64,000 nucleotides of DNA, taken from NCBI GenBank assembly GCA_016931255.1, contig JAFGFG010000008.1, positions 1-64,000 on the forward strand, read 5' to 3'. The position numbers and the translations under genes were made by a program. Position 1 is the stretch's first letter; each line of letters opens with the position of its first letter. Shown here one piece after another: positions 1 to 18,002 of the stretch. This DNA is from Candidatus Aenigmatarchaeota archaeon (lineage in GTDB: Archaea > Aenigmatarchaeota > Aenigmatarchaeia > QMZP01 > JAFGSV01). The notes beneath the pieces were generated by a model, which saw only the letters and a program-made list of their open reading frames with translations, did not search any database and was not told the origin of the DNA.

Positions 1-88
1 AATTTCAGCTCTGAAAAAATTCTCAGCTCTGTTTCACGAGGAGAATTTTTTCGAGGAAATTGAACTTCCCTTAAGCCCGATGTTATAC
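1..88 (+). other. integron-type attC site, left end cut by window
   Basis: A long imperfect hairpin ends in the box GTTATAC at 82-88, which resembles the simple-site consensus GTTRRRY of integron attC sites. Bases 13-24 pair perfectly with 41-52, 9-11 with 53-55 and 1-6 with 56-61. Base 12 and bases 7-8 are left unpaired on one strand only, like the extrahelical bases by which an integron integrase recognises a folded attC. The partner of 62-88, with the opposite box, would lie to the left of the window. One base of the box departs from the strict consensus. The identification rests on structure and on the second site at 2497-2589. Confidence 0.65.
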
Positions 89-121
89 GCAAGTTTCGGG
101 GGCTCGCCAACGGAAAGAACA

Positions 122-129
122 TTTTATAA
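122..129 (+). promoter_or_regulatory. TATA box of the cassette protease gene
   Basis: TTTTATAA lies about 26 bases before the ATG at 152, the spacing expected for an archaeal leaderless transcript. It is inside the putative cassette, so the cargo gene would carry its own archaeal promoter. Confidence 0.55.
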
Positions 130-151
130 AGAATTTACATGAGCTTTTATT

Positions 152-1210
152 ATGACTGCTCATCAGCACAAAAGAAAATCAAATAGAGGTGTTTGCCATT
201 ATCATTTATGCAGAAAAAGAACAGAAATCCATAAATGCAAATATTGTGGTGAATCTTTCTGCAAAGAACATCTGAAAGCAAAACCGCCGGGTTTGCCTCG
301 TTTTGAAGGGACAAGTCATCAAGGCCGCCTTTTTATGGAAGAATGGCAAAATCCGGGCGGTCATCCATGTATGCCTTTTCTAAGCCATTGGGAAGCAGAG
401 AATGAAAGGAAGGAAAAAGAATATAGCCAAGCTTTGGACAGACTAATCAAATCTAAACCAATTCAATTTGAGAAAGAAGAGAAGCTATACGAACCTGAAT
501 ATGAACAACCCATAAGTGAAAAGAGGCCAAGATATCATCCTCAATATTTTTTTGAGAGTGATAACTTTTCAACAAAGTTCATAAAAAGAGTTTCAAATAG
601 AATACCAAGTTTGAGCAAGTGTATGGAATATTTAGTTATTTTAGTGTTCGTGTTAGGTTTCATTTTACCAATATTTCTTTTTTTCATTCATTTAGATATG
701 CAATATGTCATAGGAAATCCAAAGCCATTATATCTTTATGATATTGGTTCATCATGTTCTAATGAAACTAATATAATTTCTTCCTTAAATCACCTCTCTG
801 AAGAAACAGGAGTCAAATTTGTTCGTTTACAAAGTCCTCTGGCTCTCTTGTCTGGAGGTATAAGTTATAGTTGTGCTAGTGTAATATCTGATTCTGGTGC
901 AGTAGGAGAAGCAGAATCTGGATTTATAGGTGTTTCATGGTTCATCATAGCATGGAATCACATAAGATTATCCTCCGTTAGTCAAGAAGTTATTTTACAT
1001 GAAACCCTTCACGTAATGGGATTTGGTCATAGCGAAAACCCAACAAGTATCATGTATCCTTACGTCAATCAACAAGGGTTAGAGAATGAATTAAAAGATT
1101 TTATAAGAAACTGGTATGCCCGCAACCCTGTAGCATATTTCAATATAGTTCCACTAAATCTTTTATGGATGCTATTTTTTATAGCAATAATATTTCTTTA
1201 TAAAAAATAA
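152..1210 (+). CDS. AN1-type zinc finger / transmembrane / metzincin protease fusion
   Basis: The 352-residue protein has three visible parts. Residues 14-75 hold an AN1-like zinc finger (Cys14, Cys19, Cys28, Cys31, Cys36, His39, then a late His-Pro-Cys). Residues about 158-180 form a membrane helix. Residues about 195-325 form a metalloprotease domain with the full metzincin motif HExxHxxGxxH (His283, Glu284, His287, His293) and a downstream Met-turn (IMYP). A second membrane helix ends the chain. The likely topology puts the zinc finger in the cytoplasm and the protease outside. AN1 fingers fused to membrane proteases are an archaeal theme, usually with rhomboids; a metzincin partner is unusual. 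The gene ends exactly against the stop of the convergent HEPN gene. The substrate is unknown. Confidence 0.75.
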   Translation: MTAHQHKRKSNRGVCHYHLCRKRTEIHKCKYCGESFCKEHLKAKPPGLPRFEGTSHQGRLFMEEWQNPGGHPCMPFLSHWEAENERKEKEYSQALDRLIKSKPIQFEKEEKLYEPEYEQPISEKRPRYHPQYFFESDNFSTKFIKRVSNRIPSLSKCMEYLVILVFVLGFILPIFLFFIHLDMQYVIGNPKPLYLYDIGSSCSNETNIISSLNHLSEETGVKFVRLQSPLALLSGGISYSCASVISDSGAVGEAESGFIGVSWFIIAWNHIRLSSVSQEVILHETLHVMGFGHSENPTSIMYPYVNQQGLENELKDFIRNWYARNPVAYFNIVPLNLLWMLFFIAIIFLYKK

Positions 1211-1786
1211 CTATCTAATTGTCATTTCTTGTAATTCCTTTGTCTTCTTTCCAATAATCTCAACCATCTTTTCATCCAACTCATTCAAAACAAGCTTTAT
1301 CTTACTTACAAACTCTCTCGCGTTTCTCATCACAACGTCAGTTTCCTTGTAGTTTATGGAAATTCCATACTGGACGGTTTCTCTCGCCCTTTTGATTTTC
1401 CAGAGGTAATCAATGTATTTTTCGCCTATTGTTATAGCTTCAATCTTGTCTTTCCTTTCTTTCAACTCGTTGAATTTTCCTATCAAATCCCTGCTTATCT
1501 GCTCACCGAAAAAATATTCCAGAACCGCCGCGGTTGTGGCATGGTCTTTGCTTTCCAGACCTATTTTTGTGAGCAACGACATGGCAGATTGATACATCGC
1601 GTAATAAGCGGAAATAACAACCCAATCCTCGTGCCCGAGTTTGCTCAAATCAGTCATAACTATCAGATTGTGGTCTGCTTTCCTGACATGACCCTCGCTC
1701 AGATAATTATTTGGTTTGGATACTCTGAGGCCTCTCTCTTCTTTGGCCCTTTTCATCGACTTTACAATCATGTCTTTTGCCTTCAT
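1211..1786 (-). CDS. HEPN-domain protein, putative toxin of HEPN/MNT module
   Basis: The 191-residue protein has the HEPN helical core: a YYAMYQSAMSLL helix near residues 61-72, a Lys/His-containing turn (KDHATTAAVLEYFF) and a charged helix ending KRARETVQY. HEPN proteins paired with minimal nucleotidyltransferases are usually RNases neutralised by their partner. The classic R-x4-6-H catalytic motif is not obvious; Arg135...Tyr140 occupies its place, so RNase activity is uncertain. Translation is coupled: the ATG overlaps the stop of the upstream nucleotidyltransferase gene by 4 bases. Confidence 0.75.
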   Translation of the reverse strand: MKAKDMIVKSMKRAKEERGLRVSKPNNYLSEGHVRKADHNLIVMTDLSKLGHEDWVVISAYYAMYQSAMSLLTKIGLESKDHATTAAVLEYFFGEQISRDLIGKFNELKERKDKIEAITIGEKYIDYLWKIKRARETVQYGISINYKETDVVMRNAREFVSKIKLVLNELDEKMVEIIGKKTKELQEMTIR

Positions 1787-2367
1787 TTGAACACCAAATT
1801 CACGAATCTTTCCGCACCATATAAAATATAGTGGTCTTTTATAACTTCTTTGATGAGGGCTTTGTCTTTTTGTTTTTTGAAATCGCCTGATGCCATCAAT
1901 ACAACGTTAACCTCTTTGCCATATTTTGCATACACCTCTTTTGTTATTTTGTCTACACCAGCTTTTGTTTCGCTTATCAGCAGAATATCAATGTCGCTTT
2001 CTTTTGTCGCTGTGCCTTTGGCATGCGAGCCAAATAAAACAACTGAAACCGGATTGACTGATTCAGTCATTTTAACAAAATCGTCTAATATTATTTTTAG
2101 TTCCTTGTTTGAATTGTACAAATCATTTTTCTTTTCAATTTCACTTAGATTTACCAATGCGATTGTTTTTTCGGTTTCTAAATTTAGAGAACAAAGATAG
2201 GATTTGCCTGCTTTTTCTTTTGTGATTACATTATCTTTGATTAGCTTATTAACAGTTCTGTGGACGAATGAATAATATTCTTCTAGGGACTTGGCTATTT
2301 CATTTATAGTGAACTTTCGTTCCACATTTCTTGCCAATAAATCAACGATTTTCAATTCAAGTTTCAT
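1783..2367 (-). CDS. winged-helix / minimal nucleotidyltransferase (MNT) antitoxin
   Basis: The 194-residue protein has an N-terminal winged helix (about 1-60) and a C-terminal polymerase-beta-type nucleotidyltransferase core. The signature GSHAKGTATKESDID gives the Gly112-Gly/Ser pair and metal-binding Asp125 and Asp127. In HEPN/MNT modules the nucleotidyltransferase inactivates the HEPN toxin by complexing or by adding AMP. The fused winged helix suggests this antitoxin also represses its own operon through the palindromes just upstream. It is first in a two-gene operon with the HEPN gene, inside the attC-bounded cassette. Confidence 0.8.
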   Translation of the reverse strand: MKLELKIVDLLARNVERKFTINEIAKSLEEYYSFVHRTVNKLIKDNVITKEKAGKSYLCSLNLETEKTIALVNLSEIEKKNDLYNSNKELKIILDDFVKMTESVNPVSVVLFGSHAKGTATKESDIDILLISETKAGVDKITKEVYAKYGKEVNVVLMASGDFKKQKDKALIKEVIKDHYILYGAERFVNLVFK

Positions 2368-2369
2368 AT

Positions 2370-2414
2370 TATCACTATTTATGATAATATTATCACTATA
2401 AGTGATATATAAAC
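2370..2414 (-). promoter_or_regulatory. promoter and repeated palindromic operator of HEPN/MNT operon
   Basis: TATCACT-ATA-AGTGATA at 2391-2407 is a palindrome with 7-base arms. A related copy, TATCACTATTTATGATA, lies at 2370-2386, 21 bases away and so on the same helix face. On the minus strand TTTATATA (about 2405-2413) fits a TATA box with a start near 2382. A repressor bound at both copies would cover the start site. Control by the antitoxin's winged helix is inferred. Confidence 0.6.
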
Positions 2415-2496
2415 CTTTCGCCGGCTCGCCCCCGAAACCTTTTCGCCCGTCAGCCTTCGGCTGAACGTTGCACTCGGGTTCGTTCCTGAAGGAAGC

Positions 2497-2589
2497 GTAT
2501 AACAGCGATTAAGCGGTTCACTTCGTTGCACTCGTTCACCCGTATTTTCTCGCTCTGCTCGAAAACATCGCTTAATCGCGATGTTATGC
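2497..2589 (+). other. integron-type attC site (right end of cassette)
   Basis: The site has the four-part attC arrangement: GTATAAC box (2497-2503), an 11-base arm GCGATTAAGCG (2505-2515), a 53-base variable loop, the exact complementary arm CGCTTAATCGC (2569-2579), and GTTATGC (2583-2589). The spacers between box and arm are unequal (1 versus 3 bases), giving the strand asymmetry seen in folded attC sites. The loop contains a smaller TTTTC/GAAAA hairpin. One base in each box deviates from the RYYYAAC/GTTRRRY consensus. It is not a terminator, since no U-tract follows. Confidence 0.7.
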
Positions 2590-2672
2590 TCAATTGCGAG
2601 TCCGCCTCTGACGAGATTGCCGCCGTCATACCTGCAGTTGACCCCCAGAAGGCATGCGCTGCAAAGTCTCAT
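2584..2672 (-). pseudogene. 5' remnant of tudS-like (DUF523) gene cut by cassette boundary
   Basis: Reading leftward from an ATG at 2672, the frame gives MRLCSACLLGVNCRYDGG, the characteristic N-terminus of DUF523/TudS thiouracil desulfurase proteins with its conserved cysteines. Similarity stops after about 20 residues, and the frame then runs into the attC sequence. The rest of the gene is absent from the window. A second in-frame ATG at 2693 is possible. The simplest reading is that the attC-bounded insertion split or truncated this gene; an assembly join is the alternative. Confidence 0.6.
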
Positions 2673-2721
2673 GACTATGCTTTGGCGTGACATTTATTAA
2701 AAATGGAGCATTAGTGTAAGT

Positions 2722-3744
2722 ATGAAAGTGGCGATGTACTACAGCAACAGCGACGTCCGCCTTGAGGAAATGAAAAAGCCCAAGGCAGGCAAAGGCGAGA
2801 TACTGCTGAAGGTCATGGCCAGCGGCATATGCGGCTCTGACATAATGGAATGGTACAGGATAAAGAAGGCACCGCTTGTTCTAGGCCATGAGGTTGCAGG
2901 AGACATAGCTGAAGTTGGCGAAGGAGTGACAGGCTTCCGTGTCGGAGACCGCGTAACTGTCACGCATCATGTTCCGTGCGGCGACTGTAACTACTGCAGG
3001 GATGACAACTCAACAATGTGCGAGACTCTGAGAACCACGAAATTCTACCCCGGCGGCTTTTCCGAGTACCTCCGCGTTCCGGGAATAAACGTGAAGAAAG
3101 GCACATTAATTCTTCCAAAGAGCGTATCTTATAATGAAGGCACGTTCGTGGAACCGCTCGGCTGTGTAATACGCGGCCAGAGGAAGGCTCAGGTGAAAAA
3201 GAATCATAATGTGCTTGTCCTTGGTTCGGGCCTTTCCGGACTTCTGCATATAAAACTAGCAAAGGCAATAGGCTGCCGGAATGTGATAGCAACAGATGTA
3301 AGCGCTGACAGAAGAAAAGCCGCGCTGAAATCGGGTGCTGACAGCGTTATAGACGCAAATGAGAATGTTCCTGAGAAACTCATGGAGCTGAACAATGGCC
3401 GTCTGGCTGACCGTGTCATTGTCTGCACCGGAGCTGCACAGGCATTCGGGCAGGCGCTTGAGTCAGTGGACCGGGGAGGAACCGTCCTTTTCTTCGCATC
3501 AATGAAACCGGATGAGAGACTGCCTGTGCCTGTTGAGCACCTCTGGAAGAACGGAATAAGCATAGTGACTACATACGCCGCTGACATGAAAGACCTTCAG
3601 GATGCGCTGAGGCTCATTGAAGAGAAGACCGTGACTGTCGGTGACATGGTCACGCACGAGCTTCCATTGGAAAAGATAGGGGAAGGATTCAGACTGTTCG
3701 CCTCCGGTAAATCGATAAAGGTAATAATAAAGCCTTACCAATAA
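2722..3744 (+). CDS. zinc-dependent medium-chain alcohol/polyol dehydrogenase
   Basis: The 340-residue protein is a full-length MDR-family dehydrogenase. Cys37, His56 and Glu57 are the catalytic zinc ligands. Cys86, Cys89, Cys92 and Cys100 form the structural zinc lobe. The nucleotide fold has GSGLSG near residue 168. The family oxidises alcohols, threonine or polyols, or reduces aldehydes, with NAD(P). The gene lies 14 bases upstream of a class II aldolase on the same strand, so the two probably act in sequence on one sugar-derived substrate. Reduction of the aldolase's aldehyde product is a reasonable inference. Confidence 0.85.
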   Translation: MKVAMYYSNSDVRLEEMKKPKAGKGEILLKVMASGICGSDIMEWYRIKKAPLVLGHEVAGDIAEVGEGVTGFRVGDRVTVTHHVPCGDCNYCRDDNSTMCETLRTTKFYPGGFSEYLRVPGINVKKGTLILPKSVSYNEGTFVEPLGCVIRGQRKAQVKKNHNVLVLGSGLSGLLHIKLAKAIGCRNVIATDVSADRRKAALKSGADSVIDANENVPEKLMELNNGRLADRVIVCTGAAQAFGQALESVDRGGTVLFFASMKPDERLPVPVEHLWKNGISIVTTYAADMKDLQDALRLIEEKTVTVGDMVTHELPLEKIGEGFRLFASGKSIKVIIKPYQ

Positions 3745-8890: not shown

Positions 8891-9814
8891 TCACTGTTCA
8901 GGCTTTTTGCTGATATTCTTTAGCTTATTTTTAAGCTCAATCATCTTCAGTTCCCTGCCTATGGCAAGCTTGTTGATTTTTTCAAGTTCGCTGTTTGCAT
9001 CTTCAACAGCTTTTTTTGCATTACTTGCGATTACATTCGCATCCTCAAGCTCAGTAATTTTCGTCTCGATTTTTTTTATCATTACGTTAAGCGACCTTGA
9101 AAGGCTTCCTATCTCGTCTTTCCTATTCAGTAGATTATTATCGATACCTCTTTTCATTCTTCCTTCTGCAACATCATTCGCAATCTTGGAAAGCCTTATA
9201 ATCGGCACTGTCATTTTCTCGGAGAATAAGATTGCAAAAATAATGCATGATAATATGACAACAAGCGTCAGTACCGATATCATTATGATTATAATGTTGT
9301 ATGTATTGTCTACATTTTTCTGAATTATTTCTACGTATTTTAGTTCTTTTACCATAAGGCTCGCTGTATTTTCAATGACGAAGAATTTTTTGAGAAGCAT
9401 ATCGTTGTAGTATGATGCTGCTGCCGTTAAGTTGCCTTTTCTGATTTCTTCAATGCCTGAATCGCATTTTCCGATTATATCTATAATTGTGTTTTTCAGT
9501 CCAGTGTAGCTTATTTTGCTCTGGTCATAGACGATTGTTTTATCGAGCCTTGATATGGTGTCCAGTATCGAGTCGCGCTGCTCTTTGTATAGCGCATACC
9601 TTTCTGTACTTCCCGGTGCAAATACAACTCTGTAGTAATTCTCTATTAATTCAGGGACAGTTTCCGTGAATGTGTTTTCGAGTATCAGGTTGTCTGAGAG
9701 ATTTTTGTATTCCGTAATGGTGTAGAAAAATAGAAGTACGAAACTTGTGATTACTGCCGTGAGAAGCGATATTATTAAAAGAAATGCCAGTATTAGCCTC
9801 AGCCAAATTTTCAT
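8891..9814 (-). CDS. membrane sensor protein with HAMP domain and coiled coil, no output domain
   Basis: The 307-residue protein has two membrane helices (about 5-31 and 172-196) around an extracellular helical sensor region. A HAMP linker (about 197-250, with the MTVPIIRLSKIAND start) and a C-terminal coiled coil (about 250-300) follow. No kinase, cyclase or methyl-accepting domain follows, so the chain stops where an output domain is expected. It lies 45 bases downstream of the sugar-binding lipoprotein and is probably its membrane partner. The architecture is seen; partnership and function are inferred. Confidence 0.75.
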   Translation of the reverse strand: MKIWLRLILAFLLIISLLTAVITSFVLLFFYTITEYKNLSDNLILENTFTETVPELIENYYRVVFAPGSTERYALYKEQRDSILDTISRLDKTIVYDQSKISYTGLKNTIIDIIGKCDSGIEEIRKGNLTAAASYYNDMLLKKFFVIENTASLMVKELKYVEIIQKNVDNTYNIIIIMISVLTLVVILSCIIFAILFSEKMTVPIIRLSKIANDVAEGRMKRGIDNNLLNRKDEIGSLSRSLNVMIKKIETKITELEDANVIASNAKKAVEDANSELEKINKLAIGRELKMIELKNKLKNISKKPEQ

Positions 9815-12339: not shown

Positions 12340-13442
12340 TTGGCGTTCCTTATCCTTTCGACTGCTATCTTCGTGGCGCATTCCCTCGGCGTGCTGCATT
12401 TGCTTTTGCTGAACCTCTCAAGGACGTATTTCGTGTTCTCACGGATTTTCTTTTCAACCATCTCGAACATCTCTTTCTCAGTCCCGCCTGTGTGCTCCAC
12501 GTATGACGATATCACGCCTCCTGCATTGGCAACGAAGTCCGGCACCACGAGTATTCCCTTTTCCTGTGCAAGCTTCTCGGTCTCATGCGTCATTGGTATG
12601 TTGCTTCCCTGGACTATCAGCCTGAATTTCAGCTTCGGTACGTCCGACGCACTTATCAGGTCAGGAACTGCGGCTGTTATGAGGACATCAGCCTTCACCT
12701 CAAGTATGTCCTCGCAGCATGTTCCTTGTCCTGGTATATAATTTACCACAGATCCGGTCTTCTTCTTGACATCCGCCAGCTTTTTGAAGTCTATTCCGTC
12801 TGCATTGTATATGACACCCCTGCTGTCTGATACAGCAACGAGCCTGCATCCGCATCTCTCTGAAAGGAACTTGGCAACGAACCACCCCACGTTTCCGAAA
12901 CCTTCTATTGCGACAGTGGATTTGCTCAGGTCTATTCCCGCGTGCTCTGCTGCCACAACTGTTGCATGATAGACACCGAACCCTGTTGAGCCGAGCTCAT
13001 GCGGAAGCCCGCCCATCTTCTTGGGCTTGCCAGTCGCAGACCTCCTGTAGCCATTGGCTTCCACGAACCATTCTATTTCCTTCTCGGCCATGTTCATATC
13101 GGGTGCAGCTATGTACTTCTTCGGGCTGACGATACTTATAGCCCTGGAAAATGCCTTCACTAATTCTTCTTTCTTCTTCGGCGTCATCTTCCTGTCATCA
13201 GCCACTATTCCGGACTTCGCGCCTCCGAATGGAAGACCGGCGAGTGCGTTCTTCAGCGTCATCGCGCGAGCAAGCCTTGCCACCTCTTCAACTGTGACAG
13301 TGGGTGTCATCCGTATACCGCCCTTGCCCGGGCCAAGTGTTGTGTTGTCTATCACTGTAAAGCCTTTCATTCCGGTCTTGGGGTCGTACACTGTGAGAAC
13401 CGTCTCAGGTCCGAACTCGTCATTGGCTATCATAAGTTCCAC
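12336..13442 (-). CDS. gdhA: glutamate dehydrogenase family enzyme
   Basis: The 368-residue protein has the Glu/Leu/Phe/Val dehydrogenase fold: the catalytic lysine region GLPFGGAKSG, AAPDMNM, the Rossmann segment AIEGFGNVG and VVPDFVANAGGV near the C-terminus. It is about 45 residues shorter at the N-terminus than common archaeal glutamate dehydrogenases, so glutamate specificity is probable, not certain. It interconverts glutamate and 2-oxoglutarate plus ammonia. It is unexpected in a redox operon; supplying NAD(P)H is a possible reason (inference). Confidence 0.85.
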   Translation of the reverse strand: MELMIANDEFGPETVLTVYDPKTGMKGFTVIDNTTLGPGKGGIRMTPTVTVEEVARLARAMTLKNALAGLPFGGAKSGIVADDRKMTPKKKEELVKAFSRAISIVSPKKYIAAPDMNMAEKEIEWFVEANGYRRSATGKPKKMGGLPHELGSTGFGVYHATVVAAEHAGIDLSKSTVAIEGFGNVGWFVAKFLSERCGCRLVAVSDSRGVIYNADGIDFKKLADVKKKTGSVVNYIPGQGTCCEDILEVKADVLITAAVPDLISASDVPKLKFRLIVQGSNIPMTHETEKLAQEKGILVVPDFVANAGGVISSYVEHTGGTEKEMFEMVEKKIRENTKYVLERFSKSKCSTPRECATKIAVERIRNAK

Positions 13443-13446
13443 TTCA

Positions 13447-13686
13447 TTACTTTATCTTCTCTATTTCTCTTTCTATCGCATGCCTGTCAAACCCTATGAT
13501 TGTCTTTCCGTTTATCTCCATCTGGGGAACTCCCATCTGGCCGGATTTTTCGACCATTTCCCTTGCTGCCTCAACATCCTGTGCGACATTTATGTCCCTG
13601 AACTCAACACCTTTCTCGGTGAGGAATTCCTTGAGCATGTGGCAGTACGGGCATGTTGGCGTACTGTAAACCTTAACTTCTGACAT
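13447..13686 (-). CDS. glutaredoxin/NrdH-like redox protein
   Basis: The 79-residue thioredoxin-fold protein has the active site Cys12-Pro-Tyr-Cys15, the cis-proline in MGVPQM and a GFDR C-terminal loop. Size and motif fit NrdH/glutaredoxin-like proteins that take electrons from thioredoxin reductase. A strong AAGGAGG site precedes the ATG. It lies 4 bases upstream of gdh in the redox operon and is the likely carrier between TrxB and peroxiredoxin. Confidence 0.88.
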   Translation of the reverse strand: MSEVKVYSTPTCPYCHMLKEFLTEKGVEFRDINVAQDVEAAREMVEKSGQMGVPQMEINGKTIIGFDRHAIEREIEKIK

Positions 13687-13736
13687 ATCAACCCCTCCTT
13701 TAAATGAATTAAATCATGATAGGGGAGCAGGCGGAC

Positions 13737-14228
13737 CTACTCTCTCTTTCCAAGTGCCTGGTCTAACATCATCAGGCCATTAACGGATTTTCCTACCATC
13801 TTGAGTTTGTCAACAATCTCTTTGGCGGATGCTTCCTCTTCAACCTGCTCGTCGATGAACCATTTGAGCATGGACATCGTTGCCTTGTCGCCTGCTTTCA
13901 TTGCAGTGTCGTGAAGCTTGTTTATGCAGCCTGTTATGTACTTCTCGTGCTTGTAAGCTGCTTCAAAGGCTGCAAGCGGTGAAGACCACTTTACAGCTGG
14001 CTTCTTCATTGCATCGAAGATTGCAGCTCCGCTACGGTCGAACAGATAGCTGTAGAACCTCATTGCGTGGGCCCTTTCCTCGTTGGCCTGCTTCTTCATC
14101 CAGTTGGCGAACCCCTTGAGATTCTCACCTTCGAAATAAGCGGACATCGCGAGATAAAGGTATTCCGATGCGAGCTCCTCATTCATATGCACGTTGACAG
14201 CGTTTTCCATATTCTTTGTTATTTCCAT
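13737..14228 (-). CDS. ftn: ferritin (iron-storage protein)
   Basis: The 163-residue four-helix protein has the ferritin di-iron ligands: Glu in NEELASEYLYL, the EERAHAM helix, and Glu residues in helix 3 and in DEQVEEEASA. It oxidises Fe(II) and stores Fe(III) in a 24-mer shell, consuming peroxide or oxygen and limiting Fenton chemistry. AAGGAGG stands 8 bases before the ATG. It follows the Cys-rich micropeptide in the redox operon. Confidence 0.93.
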   Translation of the reverse strand: MEITKNMENAVNVHMNEELASEYLYLAMSAYFEGENLKGFANWMKKQANEERAHAMRFYSYLFDRSGAAIFDAMKKPAVKWSSPLAAFEAAYKHEKYITGCINKLHDTAMKAGDKATMSMLKWFIDEQVEEEASAKEIVDKLKMVGKSVNGLMMLDQALGKRE

Positions 14229-14281
14229 AATAATTCCTCCTTTTCGAAATATAATAAAATTCTCTATTTAGTTTATCTGTC

Positions 14282-14329
14282 TTAGCAACTGCAGCAACAA
14301 CAGCATAATTCCTTCTTCTTTTCTGGCAT
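14282..14329 (-). CDS. 15-residue cysteine-rich micropeptide
   Basis: Between peroxiredoxin and ferritin an ATG at 14329 opens a 15-codon frame encoding MPEKKKELCCCCCSC followed by TAA. Six of the last seven residues are cysteine. A near-perfect TAGGAGG Shine-Dalgarno, overlapping the peroxiredoxin stop, lies 8 bases upstream. It is as strong as those of the flanking genes, so translation is likely. The Cys tail could bind a metal or act as a thiol buffer (inference). I know no family for it. Confidence 0.55.
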   Translation of the reverse strand: MPEKKKELCCCCCSC

Positions 14330-14340
14330 TCAATTACCTC

Positions 14341-14904
14341 CTATATTTTTCCTACAAGGTCAATACCAGGCTTCAGTGTATCCTTTCCCGGTGTCCAGCT
14401 TGCCGGACACACAAGACCTTTGTGCTCATTCACGAATTTCGCAGCCTGGAACTTCCTTAATGTTTCTTTGATATTTCTACCTATATCATTATCGTGCATT
14501 TCCACGGATTTTACAATACCTTCGGGGTTTATTATGAATGTTCCCCTCAGTGACATTCCCTCGTTTTCTATGTAAGTGCCGAATTTTCTGGACATCTTTC
14601 CTGTCGGGTCTGCCAGCATGGGGTATTTTATCTTCTTTATCGCATGGGAATTGTCGTGCCATGCCTTGTGCGAGAACGCGGTGTCTGTGCTCACGCTCAG
14701 TATCTCCGCTCCATTCTTCGTAAACTCTTCGTGATGCTCGGCTGCCTCTTCCAGTTCAGTAGGGCAGACGAACGTGAAGTCCGCAGGATAGAATAAAATG
14801 ACAGTCCACCTTCCCTTGTAGTCGTAAAGGCTGACTTTTCTGATTTCACCTTCATGGTATGCATCCAGCTGCATTTCCGGTATCTTATCACCAACGCTTA
14901 ACAT
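14341..14904 (-). CDS. 2-Cys peroxiredoxin (AhpC/Prx1 type)
   Basis: The 187-residue thioredoxin-fold peroxidase has peroxidatic Cys47 in the FVCPTE motif and resolving Cys166 in GLVCPASW. It reduces hydrogen peroxide and alkyl hydroperoxides using a thiol donor, here probably the operon's TrxB/glutaredoxin pair. GAGGTGA precedes the ATG. It is the first gene of the redox operon and is divergent from an Lrp-type regulator. The shared 70-base gap has a central TATA-like palindrome usable in both directions. Confidence 0.93.
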   Translation of the reverse strand: MLSVGDKIPEMQLDAYHEGEIRKVSLYDYKGRWTVILFYPADFTFVCPTELEEAAEHHEEFTKNGAEILSVSTDTAFSHKAWHDNSHAIKKIKYPMLADPTGKMSRKFGTYIENEGMSLRGTFIINPEGIVKSVEMHDNDIGRNIKETLRKFQAAKFVNEHKGLVCPASWTPGKDTLKPGIDLVGKI

Positions 14905-14956
14905 TTAATCACCTCAATTTTCATATGAATTTTATTTCAGATAAGTATATAAAGAA

Positions 14957-14988
14957 GTTCGAATATATAAATATTATGGTTCGAATAT
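14957..14988 (+). promoter_or_regulatory. direct repeats, likely operator of Lrp-type regulator
   Basis: GTTCGAATAT occurs twice (14957-14966 and 14979-14988), 22 bases apart, or two helical turns. The second copy overlaps the start of the regulator gene. A TATATAAA element at 14945-14952 sits just upstream. The arrangement suits autoregulation by the Lrp-type dimer and could also affect the divergent peroxiredoxin operon (inference). Confidence 0.5.
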
Positions 14989-15398
14989 CAAACTTAATGA
15001 TTATAGAAGCTCTCAAGAAGAATGCCAGGATATCCTATGTGGAGCTCGCCAGAAGGTTCGGTGTCACGGAGACAGCTGTGAGGAAGCGTATACGCAAACT
15101 GGAGGAAGAGGGCGTGATACGCGGATATACGATTGACATCGACCCAAGGAAGCTGGGCATGGAGGTCACTGCCACCATAGGGATTGACACCACTCCGGAG
15201 CGCTACATACATGTCATAGATGAGCTCAGGAAAATGGAAGATGTCCGTGCCATAAGAAGGTCCACGGGAGACCATATGATAATGATAGACGTCTGGTTCA
15301 CGAGCTCCGGCGAGCTGACGGAATTCGTAAAAATGATAGAAAAACTGCCCGGTGTCACGAAGACATGCCCTGCAATAATAACGGACTGCATAAAGTAG
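14976..15398 (+). CDS. Lrp/AsnC family transcriptional regulator
   Basis: The 140-residue protein has an N-terminal helix-turn-helix (ISYVELARRFGVTETAVRKRI) and a C-terminal ligand-binding RAM domain (VTATIGIDT...). The start at 14976 is preferred because the TATA box at 14945-14952 predicts a transcript starting at or just before it; upstream codons would lie above the promoter. Its position divergent from the peroxiredoxin operon makes it a candidate redox or metabolic regulator of that operon. The effector is unknown. Confidence 0.88.
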   Translation: MVRISNLMIIEALKKNARISYVELARRFGVTETAVRKRIRKLEEEGVIRGYTIDIDPRKLGMEVTATIGIDTTPERYIHVIDELRKMEDVRAIRRSTGDHMIMIDVWFTSSGELTEFVKMIEKLPGVTKTCPAIITDCIK

Positions 15399-15527
15399 CT
15401 ATTACCACCAACATACTGACAGAATTCTGTACAATTCACTGAATTTTTACATGCTTTCCGGCGTCATAACTATACCTCTGGATACTATTTAATTAATTAA
15501 TAAAAGAGCCTGCAGACAATAGATGTT

Positions 15528-18002
15528 ATGGTCAGGATAGAGAAAATCTCCATGGAAGGATTCAAGTCCTTCAAGCGGAAAGTTTCTATTCCCTTCCCAC
15601 AGGGATTCTCTGTCGTGACCGGGCCGAACGGTTCCGGGAAGACCAATATCGCAGATGCCATATATTTCGTTCTGGGCTCTGGAGGCTCAAGATTCCTCAG
15701 GGCTAAAAAAGCACACGAACTGATATTCCAGGGCAACGCCAAGAAGAAGGCTTCGGACTACGCAAAGGTCACTATGCATCTCGACAACAGGGACAGGGTT
15801 CTCCCGCTTGATGACGACAGTGTCAGCGTCTCAAGAAGGGTAAACAAGGCCGGTGTGAGCACATACAGGCTTTCCGGAAGGATAGCGACCAAGCAGGAAG
15901 TCATAGATACGCTTGTTCAGGCCAGCATAAGCCTTGACGGGCACAACATGATACAGCAGGGCGATGTCACCAGGATAGTTGAAATGGGCCCGGTTGACAG
16001 GAGGAAGGTTCTTGACGAAATCGCGGGCATATCTGATTATGATGAAAAGAAGGAAAAGGCGCTGAAGGAGCTGGAGAAGGTCGCTGACAAGGTCAGGGAA
16101 GCCGAAATCGTCATGGAGCAGAAGGACGAGTTGATGCAGAAGATAAAATCAGAAAGGGACGCCGCGCTCGAGTACAGGAAACTCCAGAACACGCTTAAGC
16201 TCGTTGTCGGGGCTTCGATACTGAAGAATCTCAGGACACTCGAGAAGAAGCTTGACAAGACAGAGGACGGTGCGGACAATAAGGAAGAGGAAATAGGCAA
16301 GGTCTCCGCTGAGATAAGGGACGTTGACAAATCCATAACTGAAAAGGAGGCTGAGATGGACTCCATCTCGGAGAAGGTTATAAAGGCTTCATCCCTTCTT
16401 GAAGAGGCCGGGCGCATAAGCGAGCTCAGGTCGAGGATAGAGATGAAGCATGAAAGAATAAAGATGAATGATTCTGAGATACAGAGGATATCCGATATGA
16501 TAGAAAAGGTGTCTTCCATCATCAGAAGGGAGAGCCCTGCGGTCAATGCCGTACAGGAGATGAAGGGTGTAGAGGGGACATTTGCTGACCTCGTGATGGT
16601 GCCGCCGAACTACAAGGTGGCGGTTGAAGTGGCAGCGGGTGGCCACCTGTCTGATGTTGTTGTTGACACAGCTACCAATGCAGCGTCCTGCATAAACTTC
16701 CTCAAGTCAGGAAAGATAGGAAGGGCAAGATTCCTTCCGATAGACAAGATTGCTTCAAGTGCAAAGGCAGACCTGCCTAAAGGCGCGATAGGATGGCTGT
16801 CAGACCTTGTGCATCATGATCCTAAATTCACGACCATAGTGAATTTCGTTCTCGGTTCAACTGTATGCGCCCGGGACATAGAAACAGCAAGGGAGATAGT
16901 GGAGAGGTCCGGAAGGTACAGGATAGTCACGCTCGACGGTGACATAATAGAAAAGAGCGGAGCAATGACAGGAGGCTTCTACAAGAAGGGCGGAGGTTCG
17001 CCTGTTAACATAAGCAATTTTATTGAGAGCAGGAAGGAACTCGAGCGTGAGAATGATACGCTGAGGATTGAATTAAGAGAACTGAAGAAGGAGCTTGAAT
17101 CGGTAAGAGGAAAGGACGAAAACATTGAAAGCGTCTCCAGGCTCGAGGAAAGAAGGCTTTCACTGTCAAGAGATATCGAGAGGTTGAGAGACAAAAAGGA
17201 CAACCTTTTCGAGAAGCGCTCATCAATCCAGCAGGAGGCCGGGAAGGCAGGCATACGCCAGGCGAGGTACGAGGCAGGCATTGAAACCGCAAGGCTTGAC
17301 TGGGAACGTTACAAGAACATGGAGAAAGACATAGAGGAGAGCGGGCTGATGGCAAACAGCGTATCGGAACTTGATGATAAAAAATACAGTATTAACAGGA
17401 AGCTTGATGAGATGGGTCCTGTAAACATGAAGTCCATAGAGGAGTTCGAGACATTCAGGGAGGATTTCGAGGAGTTCAGGGACAAGGTCATGAAGGTAAT
17501 GGAGGAAAAGAAATCCATAGAGAAGACAATAGAAGACATAGAAACCAAGAAACTCACTGTTTTCACTGTCACCATGAACAACATATCAGTGCACTTCCGC
17601 GAGGCTTACAGCGAGCTGACAGGAGGCGAGGCCGACTTGAGGCTTGCCGCTGACGGTGACATGGATTCGGGTCTCATGATTTATGCAAGCCCGCCGGGTA
17701 AGAGACTTCTCAACATAGACGCCATGTCAGCAGGCGAGAAGACACTGACAGCTTTTGCGTTCCTCTTCGCCATACAGAACCACAAGCCGGCGCCGTTCTA
17801 TGTGTTTGACGAATCTGATTCCTCACTTGACAAGTCCAACACCAAGCGGGTTGTCGAGCTGATAAAAAGGCACAGCAAGCTTGCCCAGTTCATACTGATA
17901 TCGCACAACGACCAGCTCATAAAGGAGGCCGATCAGGTATACGGTGTCAGCATGGAGCACGGGGAGTCGAAGATAATAGGCATCCAGTTGCCGAACAATT
18001 AA
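15528..18002 (+). CDS. smc: SMC chromosome-segregation ATPase with shortened coiled-coil arms
   Basis: The 824-residue protein has all SMC parts: Walker A GPNGSGKT (32-39), N-terminal arm (about 160-343), hinge (about 344-495, ending GAMTGG), C-terminal arm (about 497-655), ABC signature MSAGEKT (733-739) and Walker B with FDES (Asp761, Glu762). SMC dimers organise and segregate chromosomes with kleisin partners. Canonical SMCs are near 1,170 residues; here each arm is about half the usual length, with head and hinge intact. No scpA is in the window. The Walker B context DESDSSLD is also less usual than DEVDAALD. Confidence 0.93.
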   Translation: MVRIEKISMEGFKSFKRKVSIPFPQGFSVVTGPNGSGKTNIADAIYFVLGSGGSRFLRAKKAHELIFQGNAKKKASDYAKVTMHLDNRDRVLPLDDDSVSVSRRVNKAGVSTYRLSGRIATKQEVIDTLVQASISLDGHNMIQQGDVTRIVEMGPVDRRKVLDEIAGISDYDEKKEKALKELEKVADKVREAEIVMEQKDELMQKIKSERDAALEYRKLQNTLKLVVGASILKNLRTLEKKLDKTEDGADNKEEEIGKVSAEIRDVDKSITEKEAEMDSISEKVIKASSLLEEAGRISELRSRIEMKHERIKMNDSEIQRISDMIEKVSSIIRRESPAVNAVQEMKGVEGTFADLVMVPPNYKVAVEVAAGGHLSDVVVDTATNAASCINFLKSGKIGRARFLPIDKIASSAKADLPKGAIGWLSDLVHHDPKFTTIVNFVLGSTVCARDIETAREIVERSGRYRIVTLDGDIIEKSGAMTGGFYKKGGGSPVNISNFIESRKELERENDTLRIELRELKKELESVRGKDENIESVSRLEERRLSLSRDIERLRDKKDNLFEKRSSIQQEAGKAGIRQARYEAGIETARLDWERYKNMEKDIEESGLMANSVSELDDKKYSINRKLDEMGPVNMKSIEEFETFREDFEEFRDKVMKVMEEKKSIEKTIEDIETKKLTVFTVTMNNISVHFREAYSELTGGEADLRLAADGDMDSGLMIYASPPGKRLLNIDAMSAGEKTLTAFAFLFAIQNHKPAPFYVFDESDSSLDKSNTKRVVELIKRHSKLAQFILISHNDQLIKEADQVYGVSMEHGESKIIGIQLPNN

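Follow-up and report, generated by a model that had tools for sequence, protein, structure and literature searches.

A probable chromosomal integron with a Xer-like recombinase, inserted between aldolase and ADH genes in a small-genome archaeon

Integrons are arrays that collect genes, and IntI reads extrahelical bases by means of its I2 helix. According to integron theory, recombination of the folded single-strand attC became possible when a Xer-like ancestor acquired the I2 helix (PMC4792948, PMC7790495), and I2 is held to be necessary for cassette capture, with intermediates said to be lacking (PMC7790495, PMC4792948). Archaeal integrons with IntI-type integrases were reported in 2022 (PMC9668308). 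In the literature searched, which excluded preprints and most subscription papers, there was no earlier description of Xer-like integron integrases or of Patescibacteria integrons.

The locus described here resembles the bacterial IntI integrons (class 1, Vibrio and other chromosomal ones) in its divergent integrase, attI, tandem cassettes and imperfect-palindrome attC sites with AAC/GTT cores and a G|TT crossover signature. It differs from them in its integrase, which lacks the I2 or IntI-specific domain and falls outside the IntI group in the tree, in an attC class that is missed by the bacterial model, and in cassette-specific inverted repeats. Ghaly et al. 2022 (PMC9668308) described archaeal integrons and CALINs which, like this locus, involve arrays of attC in archaeal MAGs, cargo of the toxin-antitoxin type and a proposed exchange across domains; the integrases of that study, however, contain the IntI-specific domain, which was the basis for calling them, and systems of the present kind would there be called CALINs or missed. 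The Xer recombinases (PaXerA, TaXerA, XerC/D) are closest in fold and size and also have no I2 helix, whereas the present enzyme is patchily distributed, linked to attI and cassette arrays, and below the cut-off of NF040815. Finally, the integration of CTX phage and IMEX by XerCD likewise relies on an enzyme of the Xer type and on a single-strand site that is folded (PMC4792948, PMC7790495), but here there are an own integrase, multi-gene cassette arrays and an attI platform.

We analysed a window of 64,000 nucleotides whose first base is also that of contig C9 (68,136 bp), in a genome of 929 kb (9 contigs, 93% complete, 0.04% contaminated). The earlier note had placed this DNA in an archaeal chromosome, and we agree that contig C9 is archaeal because an archaeal SRP RNA was found in the window; the label DPANN, applied to these archaea, would follow from small genomes and archaeal markers. 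Positions 1–2721 of the window are very likely the distal end of a chromosomal integron with a Xer-like recombinase, lying between an aldolase and an ADH gene, with its proximal end on contig C2. Its layout and boundaries, and the conservation, covariation and cassette movement between genomes set out below, are read from the sequences themselves. The features are as follows.

1–88, plus strand: 3′ half of the preceding attC, with L′ arm at about 68–78 and R′ box GTTATAC at 82–88 (repeat and box evidence)
83–2583, plus strand: gene cassette in its integrated form, delimited by a G|TT crossover on either side; the 5′ end TTATACGC is complementary to the R″ box of this cassette, GCGTATAAC
93–115, plus strand: left arm of a cassette-specific subterminal inverted repeat (repeat search, cassette comparison)
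152–1210, plus strand: ORF of 352 aa with a weak AN1-like zinc finger at its N terminus, hydrophobic segments and a matrixin-like (M10) metalloprotease domain
1211–1786, minus strand: HEPN-domain protein, putative toxin, 191 aa (PF05168, 29.6 bits)
1783–2367, minus strand: MNT-type nucleotidyltransferase, putative antitoxin, 194 aa, with a winged-helix-like N-terminal region (PF01909, 43.6 bits)
2416–2438, plus strand: right arm of the subterminal inverted repeat (repeat search, circle fold)
2439–2494, plus strand: structured spacer from inverted repeat to R″ box, with GTTGCACT
2495–2594, plus strand: attC (R1 57 bits, E=2.8e-9, and fold), made up of R″ GTATAAC 2497–2503, L″ 2505–2515, a two-branched loop 2516–2568, L′ 2569–2579, R′ GTTATGC 2583–2589 and CAAT 2591–2594
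2584–2721, plus strand: probable remnant of the next cassette, from the last attC to ADH
2722–3744, plus strand: chromosomal gene for ADH, which flanks the integron on the right; the aldolase gene is directly upstream in several relatives
C2:318824–319678, minus strand: divergent tyrosine recombinase of 285 aa, Xer-like, beyond the aldolase

The three end boxes named in the earlier note (GTTATAC at 82–88, GTATAAC at 2497–2503 and GTTATGC at 2583–2589) are all present where it had placed them. Of its two long hairpins, the second was recovered, with 11-bp arms (2505–2515 and 2569–2579) that pair perfectly around a 53-nt loop, whereas only the 3′ half of the first is there since contig C9 begins at base 1. 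The hairpin at 13–52 is the inner hairpin of this truncated attC, whose GGGCTTAAGGG arm and R″ box fall outside the contig. The covariance model R1, trained on nine attC sites, all taken from genomes other than the window genome but within its order, scored 57.0 bits (E=2.8e-9) at 2495–2594; run on the whole genome it returned this site at E=4e-8 and no second one under E=0.1, which leaves one complete attC in the genome. The fold of the bottom strand of 2497–2589, which the note had proposed to check, was more stable than all the shuffles (z = -3.96; 0/200 equally stable). The truncated half alone scored 13.8 bits (E=2.7); judged by an 80% direct repeat that it forms with the second site, and by the exact 9-bp GTTATACGC/GCGTATAAC match, it is half of an attC. 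Its missing half was sought at the other contig ends of the genome and none carries it. The claim of a gene cassette at 83–2583 was borne out by its 5′ end GTTATACGC, the exact complement (9 bp) of its own R″ box GCGTATAAC. In a search for further attCs in the same genome by the R′ motif, the matches were chance ones inside coding sequence. The C5 end (L031) and the C7 end (L035) of this archaeal genome, G000, carry CRISPR arrays with the repeat end AATTTCTACTATTGTAGAT, typical of Cas12a (type V-A).

As for the cargo, which had been described as an AN1-metzincin with a HEPN/MNT pair, profile matches were obtained for M10 (27.1 bits against a cut-off of 24), PF05168 and PF01909, but AN1 stayed under its cut-off. 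The MntA profile scored under cut-off on the 194-aa MNT protein, and the alignments to metzincin relatives within the phylum mostly cover only part of the protein. Beyond the last attC, window positions 2584–2610 share 27 identical bases with positions 9346–9372 of L382, a cassette start in G053, from another family; these 27 bases may represent a shared cassette-end type.

When ADH was sought in relatives, it was found right after the aldolase gene, with a short gap only, in four genomes (G004, G023, G016 and G025), an arrangement that we interpret as the empty site of the integron and that answers to the uninterrupted locus anticipated in the earlier note. In the window genome the aldolase gene lies at C2:317983–318819, near the right end of contig C2, and is followed by the divergent recombinase and then by an attI-like site, GTTCGCTAAATAGGTG|TTAGTTTC (also written TTCGCTAAATAGGTG|TTAGTTTCAAT). 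Next comes a first cassette, an AT-rich segment of 3.3 kb with a TrmB-like regulator, a methyltransferase and a xanthine/uracil-type permease; no transposase was found among these three genes. Its GAAACTAAC stands at the very end of the contig, and GTTAGTTTC/GAAACTAAC match perfectly, as GTTATACGC/GCGTATAAC do in the window, a pairing that by its bases is a cassette signature. From the aldolase/ADH synteny and the order on C2, the insertion would read integrase, attI, cassette 1, assembly gap and last cassette, with the join between C2 and C9 drawn from synteny and not from reads. The integron reading of the earlier note is upheld as far as cassette, attC and an integrase on C2 are concerned, but not for a canonical IntI.

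The AlphaFold model of the recombinase (pLDDT 82.6, pTM 0.61) has XerA as its nearest solved structure, followed by VchIntIA, and the best NCBIfam model is that of archaeal XerA (NF040815), at 193 bits against a cut-off of 220. The I2 or IntI-specific segment is absent, residues 177–240 of VchIntIA being skipped in the alignment, and the spacing from KGxKxR to HxLRH is 62–72 aa in the Xer-likes compared with 106–107 aa in most IntIs. The enzyme does not behave as an archaeal XerA that is a core gene in most relatives: close orthologues (E<1e-80) were detected in about 12 of 61 genomes, are 60–71% identical and are patchy in order and class, and three genomes of the same genus have weaker homologues only. 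A match to an IntI profile had been expected, and none passed the cut-off here or in the phylum, where canonical IntI was found in 0 of 156 genomes (TIGR02249, E<=1e-45); as a positive control, the same search detected it in three IntI-bearing genomes. In the integrase tree, DPANN, CPR and IntI form separate well-supported clades (main DPANN integrase clade 100/99, CPR clade 100/99, IntI clade 100/100) and the deep nodes are weak. By AU tests neither DPANN+IntI (p=0.33) nor DPANN+CPR (p=0.34) was rejected, and all three together gave p=0.065.

Covariance models were used because degenerate attCs had escaped a strict stem finder that allowed no gaps. The nine attCs of other genomes adopt a common Y-shaped fold with compensatory changes in 17 of 23 pairs, and in 59 attC sites, whose alignment was fitted to the model and is biased towards structure, 90.5% of cells are paired (66.6% when shuffled) with a covariation score of 0.585 (0.169 shuffled, at most 0.108 slid). 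The sites are thus attCs folded by R and L arms and conserved by covariation, and the attC reading of the earlier note stands on R1, but not as a canonical attC: R2, a bacterial attC model built in this analysis and distinct from attC_4 of IntegronFinder, gave the window site 12.4 bits (E=0.25). The same model scored bacterial arrays up to 60 bits and elsewhere found no archaeal site; since it detects the bacterial arrays and not the archaeal sites, the latter are regarded as a separate attC class. Matches to R1 were also seen in Flavobacterium loci L144 (32.8 bits) and L147 (22.3 bits); that of L144, at 16322–16459 in Flavobacterium enshiense, is attC-like, lies about 5.5 kb from a Xer-like recombinase and could be chance or a further relative.

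In the phylum, attCs of the R1 type occur in 52 of 156 genomes, and in many genomes orthologues of the recombinase adjoin the same attI and attC arrays; attI is found beside a divergent integrase gene. A conserved half-site, TTCGnTAAATAG(G/T)TGTTA, lies upstream of members of the recombinase family and is followed by variable cassettes, and a second integrase clade, in G013 and G130, has its own attI type, GATATGAG(C/T)ATGTTA. Most contigs break off within the array; completely assembled cases are G009, G130 and G081. The order in G009 is integrase, attI, at least three attCs and then archaeal genes, DnaK/GrpE and L24e-like, the L24e-like ones identified by eye. As many arrays lie on contigs with no recombinase, action in trans or undetected integrases would be needed. 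Two other loci were seen: L135 (G001) has five weak attC hits on both strands at 12839–17784, in an unusual position relative to the recombinase, and in L141 (Woesearchaeota) an attI-like half-site, TTCGTTAAATATGTGTTAATTGCAAT, precedes a recombinase with 41% identity that falls outside the main clade in the tree.

Tandem cassettes with the G|TT crossover signature were found, and the two ends of a cassette belong together. In 15 of 16 cassettes, 5 or 6 of the 6 variable bases at the 5′ end are complementary to the R″ box of the same cassette, compared with 15 of 240 cross pairs, and 0 of 100,000 permutations did as well; the R′ match is also present in most of 17 bacterial control cassettes. 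The cassette-specific inverted repeat starts mostly 10 nt past the crossover and recurs 50–80 nt ahead of R″. Its score was 11.8 for self pairs and 7.1 for mismatched ones (0 of 100,000 permutations), reaching at least 10 in 10 of 12 archaeal cassettes and in 0 of 17 bacterial ones, in which the repeat was absent (self 6.5, mismatched 6.7). Both the box match and the inverted repeat were seen again in 30 further segments. When the circle is reconstructed, the repeat prolongs the R stem in the fold and the whole attC region becomes one long hairpin. Of 42 archaeal cassettes, 14 have the motif GTTGCACT (at 2464–2471 in the window, for example) within the final 130 nt, whereas 55 kb of cassette bodies contain just two copies.

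Among 287 Patescibacteria genomes, 32 carry an integrase of a related clade, in many cases with attI CGCATAnAAACGAGTTnnnnGAAAT. The archaea-trained R1 detected attCs (E<=1e-3) beside the Patescibacteria integrase in 11 of 16 loci, in all 11 upstream of the integrase and on the opposite strand; there were 10 sites in G316 (by the stem finder), at least 6 in G409, and a score of 70 bits in G413. One cassette is common to the patescibacterium G413 (L432, array start) and the archaeon G115 (L381, 7978–8605), 89.8% identical over 629 nt. The G413 contig is bacterial because it carries genes for EF-P, peptide deformylase and an ECF sigma factor. The homology stops at the subterminal inverted repeats GGCGGCGGC/GCCGCCGCC, and the two loci have different R boxes and attC frames, as would be expected if gene modules passed from one such frame to another. 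Moreover, G289, a patescibacterial contig of 984 kb, and the archaeon G065 share an attC frame (88.8%, 134 nt).

We propose that the recombinase would bind the folded bottom strand of attC, in the array or in the circle, and that strand exchange at 5′-G|TT-3′ would let cassettes exit as circles and re-enter at attI; the I2 helix would not be required here, and the extended attC fold may substitute for it. Catalysis by the Xer-like recombinase, a single-strand substrate and a circle intermediate are what the comparisons suggest. Alternatively, the Xer-like integrase could be active on double-stranded core sites like ordinary Xer, the attC fold having another role. The absent I2 helix, the inverted GCGAA/TTCGC layout of attI, which resembles a duplex core site, and the use of duplex dif by Xer enzymes (PMC4792948) would suit such activity, but we consider it unlikely, since stem covariation is very strong across the entire Y-shaped fold, attC and attI have little in common except the GTT core and the downstream CAAT, and folded attCs are kept in both domains.

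It is more doubtful still that the locus is an archaeal integron of the ordinary kind reported in 2022, an attC cluster without IntI that a host XerA adjoins by chance. Archaeal CALINs are known (PMC9668308) and the recombinase scores highest with archaeal XerA, which would speak for this reading; against it, the order and orientation of gene, attI and array are constant in many genomes in which the integrase is patchy, Patescibacteria have a like arrangement with a different integrase clade, and the bacterial attC model fails on these sites. Another mobile element, of IMEX type or a transposon with terminal inverted repeats, might come to mind from the subterminal inverted repeats in the cassettes and from the G413/G115 homology that ends at them, yet it is very improbable with tandem cassettes that each have an own attC and matching R′/R″ boxes, one adjoining attI, and a first cassette without a transposase. 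As the contig starts within an attC and the data are of MAG type, a chimera of assembly or binning was also considered, but it is hardly credible for a genome of such completeness and low contamination, with like structures inside long contigs of 149 kb (G009), 918 kb (G115) and 984 kb (G289).

The preferred reading, a chromosomal integron with a Xer-like recombinase, describes a system that would work like an integron with two features of the IntI type missing, an I2-domain integrase and an attC of the bacterial model. Points that weigh against this reading are the single complete attC in the genome, the closeness of the recombinase to XerA in structure and profile score, the unusual position of the weak attC hits in G001, the many arrays on contigs with no recombinase, and the reliance on synteny for joining C2 to C9. 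Somewhat less firmly, and on balance, we favour an I2-independent integron lineage with Xer-like integrases, an attC class of its own and inverted repeats that flank attC, widespread in the small-genome archaeal phylum and in Patescibacteria and swapping cassettes across domains, which would be either the missing intermediate between Xer and IntI or of independent origin. The I2 hypothesis becomes directly testable because I2-less Xer-like integrases adjoin attC arrays that are under strong folding constraint. Such systems would explain archaeal attC arrays with no recognised integrase, and would offer a concrete route of gene exchange between archaea and ultrasmall bacteria.
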